Positions 16,348 to 22,176 are shown, numbered from the stretch's first letter. The stretch is 48,474 bases of DNA from Thermoplasmatota archaeon (GCA_022848765.1 JAJISJ010000002.1:1-48474); one strand, 5' to 3'. Notes: a model not told the origin generated them from the letters alone. Program-made: numbers and translations.

Positions 16348-16542
16348 ATGGAATGTAAATCATCAGAAAACAAAAAAAATTGTAACTGTTCATATCCTTG
16401 TAATAAAAAGGGAATATGTTGTGAATGTATAACTTATCATAGAAAAATGTTTCAACTACCAGCTTGTTATTTTTCAGATAAAGAAGAAAAAACATATGAC
16501 CGATCAATTAAAAATTTTATAAAATTATATGATAAAATTTGA
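16348..16542 (+). CDS. Small cysteine-rich DUF6485-like protein
   Basis: A 64-residue protein with eight Cys, seven of them clustered in the first 40 residues (CNCSYPC, GICCECI), followed by [11 protein letters not shown] and ending with [13 protein letters not shown]. The pattern matches my memory of the DUF6485 family, small probable metal-binding proteins of anaerobes with no known function. It begins 17 bases after ligA with a GTGA site upstream, so it is probably cotranscribed with polX and ligA. Whether it has any link to DNA repair is unknown. Confidence 0.75.
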
Positions 16543-16573: not shown

Positions 16574-17179
16574 TTATTTAGAATAGCTGATATTTATCGT
16601 AATTATTTCATCATTTACATCAATACCTTTCAAAGATTTTACCATCCCAATTAACGTGTTTTTAATAAATTCCTGCGGAAATTCAGATAAAGATATTTTT
16701 TCCCCATTCACTTTTAACTCAATTTTATCATCCAAATAATTACACCTCTCATTTAATTTATTTGCAATAAATGATTGAATTTTATTTAAATTATTATCAT
16801 AAGTAAATATAGTGTTTTTAAGTAAAGATTTATTTCCAATTCTAATTTTTTGAATAAATTTATCTTGTACACCTTCTACAAGAATCAAATCATAATATTT
16901 ATATGCAAGAATATATTCAATGCAATTATTTAATTTCATTTCGTCTTTGAAAATAAACAAGGTTTGATCTTTTGTTAAAAACGAAATTGCATTTGATCCG
17001 GCTTCTGCAAATTTATATGTATCTTTACCTACACGATCAATATTATAGGATTTATCTGACTGTTTAATTGAAGCAACTTTATAGTTCAATTTGGAAAAAT
17101 ATATAATTAGTTCAGTGATAAGTTTAGTCTTACCCGTATTTGAAAATCCATATATCCCAATAATTACAGGTTTTAGCAT
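16574..17179 (-). CDS. mobB: Molybdopterin-guanine dinucleotide biosynthesis adapter MobB
   Basis: A 201-residue P-loop GTPase of the MobB family. The Walker A is GFSNTGKT (11-18). The family signature with DRVGKDTYKFAEAG and SNAISFLT follows, then LILVEGVQDK as the Walker B-like region. MobB assists attachment of a nucleotide to molybdo- or tungstopterin. It sits next to the tungsten oxidoreductase island on the opposite strand, with a 286-base divergent spacer, so it probably serves that enzyme. No ribosome-binding site is seen; a T-rich TATA-like element is about 30 bases upstream. Confidence 0.82.
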   Translation of the reverse strand: MLKPVIIGIYGFSNTGKTKLITELIIYFSKLNYKVASIKQSDKSYNIDRVGKDTYKFAEAGSNAISFLTKDQTLFIFKDEMKLNNCIEYILAYKYYDLILVEGVQDKFIQKIRIGNKSLLKNTIFTYDNNLNKIQSFIANKLNERCNYLDDKIELKVNGEKISLSEFPQEFIKNTLIGMVKSLKGIDVNDEIITINISYSK

Positions 17180-17430
17180 TAATATAGAAAATTAGTTTTT
17201 AATAAAAAAACTTATCTTTATAAAACATTAAAATAATTTTAAATTAGAATAATTTAATATTATTACAAACGGCTAATTCATATTTAAATAACTTATATAA
17301 TTAAAGCCCCCATGTTCAATTTAGCTATTATTTTGTATCTCTTAGAGATGTTTATTAAAGAAAAATATATGTTGATATAGTAATTATAATTATAAGCAAT
17401 TTATTAATATTGATTAGATTTTAAACATAA

Positions 17431-17444
17431 TTTATATATATACG
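17431..17444 (+). promoter_or_regulatory. TATA box of the tungsten-enzyme island
   Basis: TTTATATATATACG is 22-35 bases before ATG 17466. No ribosome-binding site precedes that ATG, so the message is probably leaderless. The 286-base spacer back to mobB (17180-17465) is otherwise AT-rich, and I see no other gene in it. Confidence 0.55.
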
Positions 17445-17465
17445 CATACAAATATCTGCCAAAGT

Positions 17466-17888
17466 ATGATATTTAGTAGGGGGAAAATAATACATATATT
17501 AGCAATTTCTGTTATTATATTAGGAATAATTTCAACAATATATGTTAATGCATATAAAGAAAAAAATAATAGCTCAAATGAAATTATTATAAATGGAAAT
17601 AGCTTTGATATTTCAATAATTTTTTCAAATATAAATGAAATAAAAATCATAACTGATGATGGAGAAAAATCAGGTATACCTTTAGATCAATTAATCGATT
17701 ATAGCGGAGAAAATTGTCCTTCATGTTTTAAATACCAAATAATTGGATCAGACGGATATAAACAAACCGTAACTTGGCAGGATATGGAAAATGGTGTACT
17801 ATCATTAGATAGAATTGCATTTTTTCCTCATTTAGCACATCCTTTTTGGGTTAGAGATATTATTGAAATTGAGGTGAAAAAAATATGA
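17466..17888 (+). CDS. Membrane-anchored mini protein with a sulfite-oxidase-fold-like domain
   Basis: A 140-residue protein with an N-terminal membrane anchor or signal (about 8-29) and an exported domain. The domain carries the pattern of the C-terminal part of oxidoreductase molybdopterin-binding (SUOX-like) domains: SGIPLDQLIDYSG, then a GSDGYKQTV strand, LSLDRIAFF, and a closing VRDIIEIEV. It is far shorter than a true Mo-binding domain. Its only two cysteines form a CPSC pair (about residues 79-82), which could be a redox or metal site. Its stop overlaps the next gene as ATGA. Function unknown. It may be an accessory or scaffold for the downstream AOR-type enzyme; that is inference. Confidence 0.7.
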   Translation: MIFSRGKIIHILAISVIILGIISTIYVNAYKEKNNSSNEIIINGNSFDISIIFSNINEIKIITDDGEKSGIPLDQLIDYSGENCPSCFKYQIIGSDGYKQTVTWQDMENGVLSLDRIAFFPHLAHPFWVRDIIEIEVKKI

Positions 17889-18571
17889 AAAATAAAATGA
17901 GAATATTTGCTCTAATAATATTTTTTGGATCAATCTGGGGTTTTTCAGAAATTTTTATAGGATCATTTCTAGCGGACCAAGAACTACCTTATGGAATAAT
18001 TATGACAGGTTTTTTCGCAATGATTTTCTTAACACTTAGTAGAATTATTTATAATCAAAAAGGTATGCAAATAGCAATTGGAATAACAGCAGGTGCTCTA
18101 AAATATTTTAATCCATTTGTTGGAGGTAATGTTTGTAGTGCAATTGCAATAATGGCTGAAGGATTAGTATTTGAATTGATATGGAATTATTTTATGAATT
18201 ATGATTTTTCTCAACTAAAATCTATAAAAATGAAAATAAGTGTTGGAATATTTACGTCCTATATGGTTTATGTTTCAGGATTCATTTTAACACAGATTTT
18301 AACACCTTTGATTTATTCAAACTTTTATTTTGAAAATTTAATATCTTTTATGCCTCAAATTTTTTCAAAAGGATTATTTGCAGGAATTATTGGAGGTCTA
18401 TCTATTCCGATAGCATTTTCATTAAGTAATATTAATTTATCATTAAAAGATAAAATATATTATCGTGAGGGACGCCTAAGGATAAATAGACTATTTTATC
18501 CAACTACATTCGGAATTTCTGCAATTTGCTGGATAATTGTATTAGCAAATTGGTATATTTTTATATCATAA
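17885..18571 (+). CDS. Polytopic membrane protein of unknown function, in the tungsten-enzyme operon
   Basis: A 228-residue protein with six to seven predicted TM helices (about 7-28, 35-55, 60-78, 82-105, 118-145, 155-178 and 205-226). Conserved-looking polar positions include GSIWGFSE, KYFNPFVGGN with a Cys, and AIMAEGLVFELIW. Size and helix pattern resemble S components of ECF transporters, but I see no family signature that settles this. It is coupled by ATGA overlap to the SUOX-like protein and lies 19 bases before the ferredoxin. Possible roles are a membrane anchor, a tungstate or substrate uptake protein, or an electron-transfer partner. Confidence 0.7.
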   Translation: MKNKMRIFALIIFFGSIWGFSEIFIGSFLADQELPYGIIMTGFFAMIFLTLSRIIYNQKGMQIAIGITAGALKYFNPFVGGNVCSAIAIMAEGLVFELIWNYFMNYDFSQLKSIKMKISVGIFTSYMVYVSGFILTQILTPLIYSNFYFENLISFMPQIFSKGLFAGIIGGLSIPIAFSLSNINLSLKDKIYYREGRLRINRLFYPTTFGISAICWIIVLANWYIFIS

Positions 18572-18590
18572 AAAAAATTGAGGGAATAAT

Positions 18591-19040
18591 ATGAAAAATT
18601 CTGGTAAAGTCAGAGTACTTAAATTCTATGATGAAAGATGTAATGGTTGTTTAGAATGTATGAAAGCCTGTTCAATGATACATTTCAAAACTAAAGAAGG
18701 TGGTGAAAAATCCGCAATTAAGATAAATAAAATAAATAAAAAATTTATAATGAATGCCTGCGATCAACGAGGTTTATGCCTTGATATGTGTCCTGTCGGA
18801 GCATTAAAAAGGAAAAAAAGTAGTATTGTATGGCTAGATAAAAAAATATGTATTGGTTGCCAAGCATGTATAGGTTTTTGTCCAATAAATGCTATGAGAA
18901 AATCAAAAGACAGAATTGAACCTTTTAAATGTATAAGCTGCGGTGCATGTATACGAGTTTGTCCAGAAAAAGCCCTTGAATTTATTGAAAAAGATATTAA
19001 TGATATTAAGGAAATTGTTTACCATAAACAGGGAGTATAG
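18591..19040 (+). CDS. Polyferredoxin electron-transfer subunit of the AOR-type enzyme
   Basis: A 149-residue iron-sulfur protein with four cluster motifs. They are C17-C20-C23-C27, a second motif with C57, C63 and C67, C87-C90-C93-C97, and C114-C117-C120-C124. The second motif reads CxxRxxCxxxCP, so Arg replaces the usual second Cys and this site may hold a [3Fe-4S] cluster or a non-Cys ligand. It precedes the catalytic subunit by three bases, as the small subunits of WOR/BamB-type enzymes do, and should pass electrons between the tungsten site and a partner. A GAGGGA site precedes the ATG. Confidence 0.9.
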   Translation: MKNSGKVRVLKFYDERCNGCLECMKACSMIHFKTKEGGEKSAIKINKINKKFIMNACDQRGLCLDMCPVGALKRKKSSIVWLDKKICIGCQACIGFCPINAMRKSKDRIEPFKCISCGACIRVCPEKALEFIEKDINDIKEIVYHKQGV

Positions 19041-19043
19041 ATA

Positions 19044-21359
19044 ATGTTAGAAGGACAAATACCAATTGAAGATTATGAATCAGGAAATACAAAAAACAAA
19101 TGGAATTTAAATAAAATCAAGTTAGAACATAAAACAATTAGCGAATATAACTATATTAAAAAGGATATTCAAAAGGGATACGCCAATCGAACATTATATA
19201 TTAATCTAAATGAAGGAATCATTAAAGAGAAAAAAGTCACAGAAGATATGAAAAAACTTTTCACTGGTGGAAGAGGATTTGGATTAAAATTATTGTGGGA
19301 TTCAATTAAATCCAATACAAGATGGAATAGTAATGAAAATGAACTAATTATCACAACTGGTCCTTTATGTGGAACCACCCAATACCCTGGCTCTGGTAAA
19401 TCACTTTGCCTCACTATTTCTCCATCAACAGATATTATTTGTGATAGCAATGTTGGTGGATTTTTTGGCCCTTATTTAAAATTTGCAGGTTTTGATGCTG
19501 TTGAAATTCAAGGTAAAGCTAAAGAAGATGTTATAATTATAATTGATGGAGAAAAAGGGAAAATTTCTATTGAAACAGCTCCTCTTGAAGAAACTAATTC
19601 ACATATGATTAGTCAACAGTTAACGCAAATGTATTCTTCAGAAGACGATGATAAATCCAGACAAAAAATTTCTATTGTGTCTGCTGGAATGGGAGCTGAA
19701 AATAGTTATTGGGGTTGTCTTAATTTTTCATTTTATGATATTCGTAGAAAAATTCCTCGTTTAAAACAAGCGGGTAGAGGAGGATTAGGGACAGTTCTGC
19801 GAGATAAAAAAATTAAAGCTATTTTAACTAAGGTTGAGAAATTTGATGGTGTTTCAAATAATCCTGCTGATTCCGTAACTCTTGCAAAAGTTGGAACTAA
19901 ACTTCACAGAGAAATTAGGGATCTGGATAGATATCAATGTAATATGCGAGCTGTGGGTACTGTTCATTTAGTTGAAATAATGGATGAATATGATTTATTA
20001 CCAACTGAGAATTATAGATTTGGTAGTTTTCCTAAGGCATCTAAGTTATATTCACAAAATTTTTATAAGCTTTTTACAAAAATAATTCCTGATGGTTGCT
20101 GGCATGGTTGCACAATGGCTTGTGCAAAAACAGTTGATCACTTTACTGTTATGACAGGACCATATAAAGGAGAAAAAGTAACTGTTGATGGTCCAGAGTA
20201 TGAAACTGTTGGATGTGGATCAAATATGAGCATATGGGATCCTTTATGGGTTTTAGAATTTAATTTCTATTGTGATACATATGGTTTAGATACGATTTCT
20301 ACAGGAACCTCAATAGCATTTTATATGGAGATGTATGAATATGGTATTTTAAATAAAAAAAGATGTGATGGGATTGAATTATGTTTCGGTAATGCTGAAG
20401 CAGTTTTAGAAGTCATACATAGAATTGCAAGTGGGGATAAAGGTGAATTTATAAGTATTGCTAGTAAGGGTATTAGACGAGTGAAAGATTGGTTGATTAA
20501 AAATAATTGGGGAGATATTGGAATAATTGAAGATTGTGGAATGGAAAGTAAAGGTCTTGAATACTCTGAATATGTAACTAAAGAATCTCTAGCTATGCAA
20601 GGTGGCTATGGTTTAACTTTAAAGGGACCACAACATGATGAAGCATGGTTAATATTTATGGATATGGTAAATAATTCAATTCCAACTTTTAAAGATAAAG
20701 CAGAAGCATTGCATTACTTTCCAATGTGGAGAACATGGTTTGGATTAAATGGACTGTGTAAATTACCTTGGAATGACGTTGAACCTAGTAATAATCCTAA
20801 AACTGATGATCCGTCAAAAGTTCCAGAACATGTTCAAAATTATGTTGATTATCAAAATGCTGTAACTGGTTGGAACGTAGATAAAGAAGAATTAATTTTG
20901 CAAAGTGAGCGATGCTATAATTGGCAAAGAGCTATGAATGTTTGGCTAGGAAGAGGTTCAAGAAAAGATGATTGGATTCCTTATAGATCTATGGGCCCTG
21001 TTACAGTGATGGAATATATCTCAAGAAGAGAACGATATGATAAATATTTGAATGAAAAAATTGGAATTTCTGAAGGAAAAATTGAAAAAATGAAAATCGA
21101 GGAAAAAATAAAAATAATTTATGATTATAGACAGGATCAATATCAAAAACTATCTGATGCAGTTTATTATCGACGTGGATGGACACCTAATGGAGTACCA
21201 ACTCCGAATAAAATGAAAAAATTAGGTTTCACGGATCCTAAGATGTTAAAAATACTAAAAGATAAAATTATTACGGATGAAAAAGCTGGACTAAATATTT
21301 GGGGCGGAAAATATAATAATAAAGAAAAAAACCCAAATGATGGAATAAAATATTGGTAA
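19044..21359 (+). CDS. Tungsten-type aldehyde:ferredoxin oxidoreductase family catalytic subunit (BamB-like)
   Basis: A 771-residue AOR-superfamily protein. A roughly 48-residue N-terminal extension precedes the AOR N domain (YANRTLYINLNEG, GGRGFG). Later motifs are AGRGGLGTVLRDKKIKAI for pterin binding, DGPEYETVGCGSN, and GPQHDEAW. The [4Fe-4S] ligands appear as C352, C356 and C360 in CWHGCTMAC plus C572 in GLCKLPW. The CxxxCxxxC spacing differs from the CxxCxxxC of classical AOR. The partner ferredoxin and the larger size favour a BamB/WOR-like heteromer over single-subunit AOR. The substrate (an aldehyde, an aromatic acyl-CoA, or another) cannot be read from sequence. Confidence 0.88.
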   Translation: MLEGQIPIEDYESGNTKNKWNLNKIKLEHKTISEYNYIKKDIQKGYANRTLYINLNEGIIKEKKVTEDMKKLFTGGRGFGLKLLWDSIKSNTRWNSNENELIITTGPLCGTTQYPGSGKSLCLTISPSTDIICDSNVGGFFGPYLKFAGFDAVEIQGKAKEDVIIIIDGEKGKISIETAPLEETNSHMISQQLTQMYSSEDDDKSRQKISIVSAGMGAENSYWGCLNFSFYDIRRKIPRLKQAGRGGLGTVLRDKKIKAILTKVEKFDGVSNNPADSVTLAKVGTKLHREIRDLDRYQCNMRAVGTVHLVEIMDEYDLLPTENYRFGSFPKASKLYSQNFYKLFTKIIPDGCWHGCTMACAKTVDHFTVMTGPYKGEKVTVDGPEYETVGCGSNMSIWDPLWVLEFNFYCDTYGLDTISTGTSIAFYMEMYEYGILNKKRCDGIELCFGNAEAVLEVIHRIASGDKGEFISIASKGIRRVKDWLIKNNWGDIGIIEDCGMESKGLEYSEYVTKESLAMQGGYGLTLKGPQHDEAWLIFMDMVNNSIPTFKDKAEALHYFPMWRTWFGLNGLCKLPWNDVEPSNNPKTDDPSKVPEHVQNYVDYQNAVTGWNVDKEELILQSERCYNWQRAMNVWLGRGSRKDDWIPYRSMGPVTVMEYISRRERYDKYLNEKIGISEGKIEKMKIEEKIKIIYDYRQDQYQKLSDAVYYRRGWTPNGVPTPNKMKKLGFTDPKMLKILKDKIITDEKAGLNIWGGKYNNKEKNPNDGIKYW

Positions 21360-21382
21360 TTATTATAAATATTTAATATTAT

Positions 21383-21979
21383 ATGAAATATAATAATTTT
21401 AATGAAATAAGAAATATACTATTTAATTCTAGTGTTGGTATTGCTGGATTAGGAGGTCTTGGATCAAACGCAGCAGTATCTCTCGCTCGTGCTGGAATAG
21501 GTCGTTTAGTATTAATCGATTTTGACATAATCGAAGAAGAAAATCTAAGTAGGCAATATTATTTTCTCGACCAAATTGGTAAGAGTAAAGTAGAAGCGAT
21601 TGAAGAAAATATTAAAAGAATAAATCCAGAGATTGAATTAGAATTACATAAATTAGAATTAAAAAAGGGATCTATGTCAGAATTATTTTCTAATGTAGAT
21701 GTAATAATTGAGGCATTAGATGATGCTAAAATAAAAACAGAGTTTATTGAGGAAATATTATTAACACTTCCAAATAAATCAATTGTATCAGCATCAGGAG
21801 TTACAGGTTATGGAAATTCAGATAGACTTGAAACAAAAAAATTAGGTAAATTATATTTATGCTATGACGCTAAAGCATTATCGAGTGAAGACGATATGCT
21901 TTATGCCCCGCGTGTTTGTTTAATTGCTAATTGGGAAGCAAATTTAGCAATCGAAATATTATTGGATGAAAGTCAATGA
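21383..21979 (+). CDS. thiF: Short E1-like adenylyltransferase, ThiF family 2
   Basis: A 198-residue ThiF/MoeB/HesA-type enzyme that adenylates the C-terminal Gly of a ubiquitin-like sulfur carrier. The Rossmann site is GLGGLGSN (22-29), followed by the E1 signature IDFDIIEEENLSRQ and EALDDAKIK. It is shorter than MoeB and lacks the paired CxxC zinc sites and rhodanese domain, which fits the roughly 200-residue ThiF family 2. The carrier gene overlaps its stop as ATGA. Position behind the AOR gene suggests dithiolene sulfur for tungstopterin; a thiamin role is the alternative. Confidence 0.85.
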   Translation: MKYNNFNEIRNILFNSSVGIAGLGGLGSNAAVSLARAGIGRLVLIDFDIIEEENLSRQYYFLDQIGKSKVEAIEENIKRINPEIELELHKLELKKGSMSELFSNVDVIIEALDDAKIKTEFIEEILLTLPNKSIVSASGVTGYGNSDRLETKKLGKLYLCYDAKALSSEDDMLYAPRVCLIANWEANLAIEILLDESQ

Positions 21980-22176
21980 CAATAGAAGTGAATGGTAGAA
22001 AAATTGATTGGATTGAGAATGAATCTGTAACAAAATTGTTAAAAAGAATGAAATACACCTTTCCATTGGTTGTTGTAAAAATAAATGATAAAATTGTTTT
22101 AAGAAGTGATTTTAAAATAAAAGTTATTCCTGATAATTCAAATATTGATGTTATACATATGATAAGTGGTGGATAA
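21976..22176 (+). CDS. ThiS/MoaD-like sulfur carrier protein
   Basis: A 66-residue ubiquitin-like protein ending in the required Gly-Gly (HMISGG). The pattern MTIEVNGRKIDW, VTKLLKRMKY, VVVKINDKIVLRSDF, then DVIHMISGG is typical of ThiS, and MoaD is possible. It overlaps the E1 gene by four bases, so the two are made together. It is the last gene of the island and is followed after 15 bases by the convergent UbiA gene. Confidence 0.88.
   Translation: MTIEVNGRKIDWIENESVTKLLKRMKYTFPLVVVKINDKIVLRSDFKIKVIPDNSNIDVIHMISGG

Follow-up and report, generated by a model that had tools for sequence, protein, structure and literature searches.

The window, by which we mean the whole 48,474-nucleotide stretch that was analysed, is contig C79 of a 1.2-Mb Thermoplasmata genome with a completeness of 82%. 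Six genes on its plus strand form an operon, and the divergent neighbour on the minus strand (16574-17179) is mobB, which encodes a P-loop GTPase of Moco maturation (TIGR00176, 1.7e-25, above the cut-off). The operon starts with a gene for a 140-residue protein, here called mini-SUOX (17466-17888), followed by one for TM6 (17885-18571), a 228-residue protein with 6-7 helices. Neither protein had a meaningful match in Pfam or NCBIfam, and both were analysed with AlphaFold2 and Foldseek. The next genes encode a WorS-like ferredoxin with four cysteine motifs and 15 cysteines (18591-19040; Fer4 repeats), the 771-residue AOR/WOR catalytic subunit, WorL (19044-21359; AFOR_N, 1e-48; AFOR_C, 8e-89), a short ThiF-type E1 of the thiF_fam2 type (21383-21979; TIGR02354, 2.4e-55, and PRK08644, 3.3e-65, both above the cut-off) and a WorX-type, ThiS-like sulfur carrier with a Gly-Gly end (21976-22176; TIGR01683, 2.5e-12, above the cut-off). 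The mini-SUOX and TM6 genes overlap by 4 bases, as do the ThiF and ThiS genes, and the gaps between the remaining genes are 19 bases from TM6 to the ferredoxin, 3 from the ferredoxin to the AOR and 23 from the AOR to ThiF. All seven genes lay where the original prediction had placed them, and profile matches confirmed their families. The order mini-SUOX, TM6, ferredoxin, AOR was seen again on some two dozen Thermoplasmatota contigs from independent assemblies and is thus far beyond chance. The putative TATA element near 17431 is surrounded by very AT-rich sequence. A small Cys-rich protein with a match to DUF6485 (16348-16542; 4e-6) is encoded near these genes, directly 3' of a DNA ligase gene, and was kept in several relatives.

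The AOR and its known relatives

The Fe-S ligands C352, C356, C360 and C572 of the catalytic subunit were intact, all four cysteines being invariant in 79 of 79 relatives, as was the GPEYE motif at residues 383-387. With the Fe-S and cofactor-region residues kept, the enzyme presumably still requires its cofactor. The closest solved structures were 1aor and 8c0z. The nearest relatives, at 65-89% identity, came from other Thermoplasmatota, and AORs with 56-59% identity were found in Acidobacteria, Aminicenantes, Clostridia, Bacteroidetes and others, where the usual layout is ferredoxin-AOR-ThiS without the two membrane genes. Three MAGs labelled bacterium (L056, L063 and L065) had an AOR of 70-74% identity together with genes for ferredoxin, ThiF and ThiS but not the membrane pair, which suggests that the bins are mislabelled or that genes recently crossed between the domains. 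The genome of the window has one further AOR besides that of the operon. The ferredoxin starts with MKNSGKVRVLKFYDERC and has neither a signal nor a transmembrane segment, and the AOR sequence likewise holds no export signal. Motif II of the ferredoxin reads CDQRGLCLDMCP; its Arg60 is found in most close relatives, whereas other sequences have Cys at this position (CNQCGLC), and a residue other than Cys may therefore serve as a ligand of one cluster. In three relatives of the g12 type, a gene for a GPR1/FUN34/YaaH (SatP-type) acetate/carboxylate transporter lies directly after the AOR (L046:10329-10976, L047:10329-10976 and L050:10329-10979; PF01184, 1.5e-18, for L047), hinting that the AOR might interconvert an aldehyde and a small carboxylate.

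This part of the operon follows a known plan. WOR Class II consists of WorL, WorS and a ThiS-like WorX, often with ThiF (PMC13328260), and a 2006 paper described AOR-linked MoaD/MoeB clusters, with sulfur carriers and E1s (PMC1779556). The window shares with Class II the catalytic subunit with AFOR_N, AFOR_C and the Fe-S cysteine ligands, the adjacent four-motif ferredoxin, the lack of an export signal, the ThiS-like carrier and the E1. The AOR, ferredoxin and sulfur carrier were rightly taken as known parts, belonging to the AFOR, Fer4, ThiF and ThiS families in a known WOR layout, and what is new here is the first two genes. The known clusters sit together with pterin-synthesis and tungstate genes, or in genomes that have them, whereas in the window their place is taken by the membrane pair, in a genome that has no such genes. 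Membrane association is recorded in the 2026 WOR classification only for clade 41, Class V (PMC13328260), typified by E. coli YdhYVWXUT, which likewise has membrane proteins inside a WOR operon, and whose coriobacterial versions include an unassigned pyranopterin-type subunit (PMC13328260). However, the small subunits of Class V have Tat signals or transmembrane segments and cytochrome-type partners, none of which occur in the operon of the window, and the AOR matched the YdhV model only partly, at 96.7 bits against a cut-off of 868.

Two membrane proteins that form an obligate pair

The mini-SUOX protein begins with a signal anchor (helix 5-35), followed by a beta domain of about 100 residues that resembles SUOX and PruR; given the basic residues before the anchor, this domain is predicted to lie outside the cell. 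The AlphaFold2 model (pLDDT 87) gave as best Foldseek matches PruR (7kp2, 7rkb and 7kos) and then YedY (1xdy), with probabilities of 0.99-1.00 and weak E-values of 0.03-0.13. By sequence, the mini-SUOX of the window had no PF00174 match, 6 of 24 single-domain members matched that family weakly, and a two-domain relative matched it at 5e-7. Together with the best PDB matches of the model, to PruR and YedY/MsrP, this bears out the SUOX-likeness proposed for the first protein. The family thus has the SUOX fold in common with the PF00174 molybdoenzymes but not their Mo-ligating cysteine: the alignment (A2) held no conserved Mo-ligating Cys, and a CPSC-type Cys was present in only 10 of 24 members. 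A DGY motif was conserved, with Tyr98 invariant in 24 of 24, and a Trp near the C-terminus was found in only 9 of 24. The pterin-binding protein PruR (7KOS, 7RKB), which mini-SUOX resembles, is a small extracytoplasmic SUOX fold in which Tyr/Trp residues stack on the pterin; it has a DGY-type Tyr and a gene beside that of a membrane partner. It has no conserved Mo cysteine, and its pocket is reported to be too small for Moco (PMC13259868); mini-SUOX is smaller still. The differences are that PruR is secreted and partnered by a c-di-GMP enzyme, whereas mini-SUOX is membrane-anchored with TM6 as its partner; the operon partners of PruR, DcpA or a DTB kinase, were replaced by TM6 in 65 of 65 genomes. 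Some loci carry additional SUOX-like domains. At L062:5693-6885 and in genomes of f15, f16, f19 and f26, the single-domain mini-SUOX is accompanied by a two-domain protein, giving three SUOX domains per locus, and a larger membrane-anchored SUOX-like protein of about 200 residues is encoded just 5' of the pair at L049:4243-4818, L051:4974-5615 and L143:7889-8476. In many f1 and f2 genomes, a kinase-like gene (APH/ABC1-like) also lies just upstream of the pair, alongside the gene for the ~200-residue protein.

For TM6, the AlphaFold2 model had a pLDDT of 87 and a pTM of 0.85. The best Foldseek matches were S-components of ECF transporters, TmRibU (5kbw) and 5edl, with probabilities of 0.99-1.00 and otherwise weak scores (E about 0.1, TM 0.4-0.5). 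Conserved polar residues lie within the membrane at E22, Q62, C84-S85, E92, T136-Q137 and T140 (alignment A1). TM6 has no conserved His, and no column of its alignment held more than three His, so a heme membrane anchor was rejected. An MsrPQ-like enzyme was likewise rejected, with neither a Mo Cys nor heme ligands in place. The likeness to S-components, whose role is vitamin or cofactor uptake, lies in a helical fold with six transmembrane segments and in the intramembrane polar residues. The match is weak, however, and it came without a sequence match: profile searches of the PDB and Pfam with A1 and, for mini-SUOX, A2 yielded nothing useful. Neither protein of the pair matched any ABC family. 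EcfT (PF02361, CbiQ) was absent from 57 of 66 AOR-positive genomes with the pair, including that of the window, and present in 9, and a canonical ECF transporter was rejected because most carriers are missing it. Weak fold matches suggest a pterin-type domain combined with an S-component-like membrane fold.

A survey of 390 Thermoplasmatota genomes found TM6 in 68, two of them with weak matches. Within a set of 145 related genomes, all 65 TM6 genes had a mini-SUOX gene directly 5' on the same strand, with a median gap of 7 bases; mini-SUOX and TM6 are an obligate pair. An AOR lay within 3 kb 3' of the pair in 43 of 65 genomes, and the pair stood apart in the other 22, some of which reflect contig ends. 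The 43 genomes with an adjacent AOR came from several groups at the family level, and their AORs fell into two clades. The first two genes had been described as unclassified, and they are a conserved part of AOR operons rather than genes found mostly elsewhere. In family f2 (L143, L144, L145 and L147) the pair lies beside a different ferredoxin and an AOR of a different clade, about 34% identical to that of the window, which means that module and AOR came together at least twice. About 17 genomes, from f7, f10, f11, f15 and one of f19, had an intact pair with no AOR beside it, and in one genome (G047) it runs directly into ThiF-ThiS with no AOR there. As it occurs without an AOR in f7 and f10 and on ThiF-ThiS alone in G047, the pair cannot be simply an AOR subunit and is instead a module linked to AOR and to the accessory genes of AOR. 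In the AOR-free loci of f7 and f10, a gene for a P-loop NTPase (NTPase_1, PF03266) overlaps or abuts TM6 (L149:3304-3816, L150:6218-6724, L159:6430-6939 and L162:6569-7060), and in L149, L150 and L162 a two-helix protein of 63-86 residues precedes mini-SUOX. No homologues of the pair were found in viral contigs or plasmids.

Occurrence of the pair and of genes for cofactor synthesis and tungstate uptake

The 145 related genomes were searched for WtpA, MoaC, MoeA, MoaE, TupB, MobB, EcfT and PF13531. Among the 109 AOR-positive Thermoplasmatota genomes, 66 carried the pair and 43 did not. One pair carrier of 66 had at least one of MoaC, MoaE and MoeA, against 32 of the 43 non-carriers (Fisher 4e-17, on counts inflated by shared ancestry). 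WtpA was present in 0 of 66 carriers against 15 of 43 non-carriers, and TupB-like permeases above 100 bits occurred in 15 genomes, all without the pair. None of the 24 carriers with a completeness of 90% or more and a contamination of 5% or less had MoaC, MoaE or MoeA, and incompleteness thus cannot explain the missing synthesis genes. MobB was kept in most pair carriers despite the loss of the other three. The single exception, G043, had MoaC, with a long reading frame, MoaE and MoeA all on one 7.2-kb contig of bacterial type, which also encodes a molybdenum oxidoreductase resembling assimilatory nitrate or thiosulfate reductases. This contig is most simply explained as a contaminant, although its G+C content does not settle the matter. 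G013, the only other Moco+ member of f1, is WtpA+ and has no pair. Matches to PF13531 in pair carriers were set aside after inspection by eye of sequence and neighbours, those in f19 as sulfate-type and that in the f7 genome G055 as phosphate-type binding proteins. The island had been called self-contained, whereas the host genome is apparently unable to make the cofactor that its AOR needs.

Moco+ genomes carried wtpABC-moaA-moaC-moaB-moeA in one island. In G052 the AOR gene has moa genes, mobB and wtpABC as its neighbours, in the position that the pair takes in the window. WtpABC, TupABC and ModABC fill the same physiological slot, the supply of tungsten or molybdenum to WOR enzymes; the pair differs in having no ABC subunits and in appearing to replace pterin synthesis too. 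In f7-type genomes and G013 (L206, L203, L205 and L238), the full island was found with no MoaE match beside it, and the molybdopterin synthase there may be divergent. Some AOR-positive genomes had neither the pair nor MoaC, MoaE, MoeA or WtpA, namely those of genus g53 (G087:C79, L225; G123:C81, L226; G129:C271, L227). G126 was AOR-positive with neither pair nor pathway, and the remaining genomes of this kind were fragmentary. Contig ends account for the missing pair in G008, G032, G033, G103, G141 and probably G025, and the apparent losses in several f1 genomes seem to be of this kind, but incomplete assembly does not account for g53. EcfT is present in the g53 and G126 genomes, where another cofactor route may therefore exist.

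Since relatives share ancestry, the raw counts overstate the complementarity. Within family f7, 10 genomes had the pair without Moco genes and 7 had Moco genes without the pair, all of them AOR-positive and with no overlap, and both states were found inside genera g33 and g40. On the best tree of the f7 and f10 AORs, which is a gene tree and not a species tree, there were four state changes, and the starred branches force at least three. The pair and the Moco genes flipped in opposite directions in three of three supported independent contrasts (four on the best tree), a number too small on its own for a significant sign test. The closest genomes of opposite state were G073 (Moco+) and G077 (pair+). 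Family f15 gave one further contrast (G083 versus G094), so that about five independent contrasts were available in all, three or four in f7 and one each in f1 and f15.

A possible route for cofactor supply

The two membrane genes are probably the answer to the inability of the host to make the cofactor of its AOR. A SUOX-type domain is a fold that holds molybdopterin, and S-components are a fold for vitamin import. With these two folds and the whole pathway gone, we lean, on balance, towards the pair being a salvage module for finished molybdo- or tungstopterin cofactor that takes the place of synthesis and metal uptake. The anchored SUOX-fold domain outside the cell would capture the pterin part of cofactor released by neighbours, perhaps taken from released proteins, and the S-component-like TM6 would move it across the membrane. 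In the cytoplasm MobB, or the NTPase_1 gene product in f7 and f10, would handle the cofactor before it enters the AOR, and ThiF/ThiS perhaps contribute to the same step. The pair would thereby replace moaA, moaC and moaE for pterin synthesis, moeA for metal insertion and wtpABC or tupABC for tungstate uptake. Because MoeA and the tungstate transporters are missing too, what enters is most likely cofactor already loaded with metal and not a bare pterin. From sequence and gene neighbourhoods we infer the ligand, the direction and transport itself, and also the later roles of MobB, NTPase_1 and ThiF/ThiS. Free Moco is labile. This lability speaks against salvage, as do the absence of EcfT from most carriers and the weak fold matches (E 0.03-0.1; TM 0.4-0.6). 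Further points against it are the pocket size of PruR (PMC13259868) and the AOR-positive genomes that have neither the pair nor the pathway.

An unlikely variant is that the pair imports tungstate, molybdate or a metal-free pterin precursor and that diverged or as yet unrecognised enzymes finish the cofactor inside. The mutual exclusion with WtpA and TupB-like permeases fits such an import, as do the retained ThiF/ThiS and MobB, and the small pocket of PruR-like domains would suit a small pterin. Yet MoaC, MoaE and MoeA are all gone, and neither half of the proposal covers the whole loss: if only tungstate were imported, pterin synthesis would still be needed, and if only a precursor were imported, so would MoeA and tungstate uptake. 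A tungstate transporter alone had been favoured on the exclusivity with WtpA and was demoted to a rival explanation because MoaC, MoeA and MoaE are missing as well. We consider it rather improbable that the pair holds a complex of AOR and ferredoxin at the membrane and couples it to an electron acceptor there, as in a respiratory WOR resembling Class V. That the two proteins would place the enzyme at the membrane was the original prediction, and in its favour the pair adjoins an AOR and a ferredoxin in 43 of 65 genomes, with AORs of a second clade among them. However, the pair is kept without an adjacent AOR in f7, f10, f11 and f15 and on ThiF-ThiS alone in G047, there is no conserved heme His or cofactor motif, and the AOR and ferredoxin have no export signal whereas the SUOX domain is predicted to lie outside. 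Anchoring would also leave the loss of moa, moe and wtp genes unexplained. Since the pair tracks the absence of molybdopterin synthesis and tungstate uptake, the evidence points to cofactor supply, and the two proteins are probably not membrane anchors.

The fold match to PruR, whose gene likewise lies beside that of a membrane partner, raises the idea of pterin sensing, in which the SUOX-fold domain would signal extracellular pterin to the cell via TM6 in the way that PruR works with DcpA. This is very improbable, as TM6 has no signalling domain and the two-gene module replaces a biosynthetic pathway and is not an addition to one. The geometry of a SUOX-type domain beside a protein with several transmembrane segments is that of MsrP/MsrQ, but a membrane-bound redox enzyme carrying a molybdenum site of its own is barely credible: mini-SUOX has no Mo-ligating Cys, TM6 has no conserved heme His, and a molybdoenzyme would be paradoxical in genomes without Moco synthesis. 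It is scarcely more plausible that no functional link exists and that pair and Moco-gene loss coincide merely as markers of lineage. Most of the genomes do fall in a few clades (f1, f2, f7 and f10), and genus g53 is without both. Against coincidence stand the repeated opposite flips in f7, even within genera, and those in f1 and f15, together with the physical linkage of the pair to AOR and to ThiF/ThiS.

Because the free cofactor is unstable, the general view, to our knowledge, is that all microbes using Moco or its tungsten form make it themselves, and we know of no microbial transporter for the ready-made metal-pterin cofactor. No prokaryotic Moco importer was found in the literature searched, and nothing useful was found there on tungsten in Aciduliprofundum. 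The sole exception in that literature was C. elegans, which takes up dietary Moco (PMC9793310) and so also obtains it from outside, but is an animal. We are evenly divided on whether the pair is the first prokaryotic uptake system for finished molybdo- or tungstopterin, with whole anaerobic archaeal lineages as auxotrophs that use a tungsten enzyme but neither make its cofactor nor take up tungstate, and the cofactor as a shared good of the sediment. The analysis provides a testable role for two conserved families that have no Pfam or NCBIfam model. If the role is true, a two-protein uptake module would overturn the make-your-own rule for microbes and could serve as a tool to feed metal-pterin cofactors into engineered strains. 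It would also explain the persistence of AOR-bearing archaea without moa and moe genes, link the members of uncultured sediment communities through cofactor exchange, and point to an ingredient that attempts to culture them have lacked.
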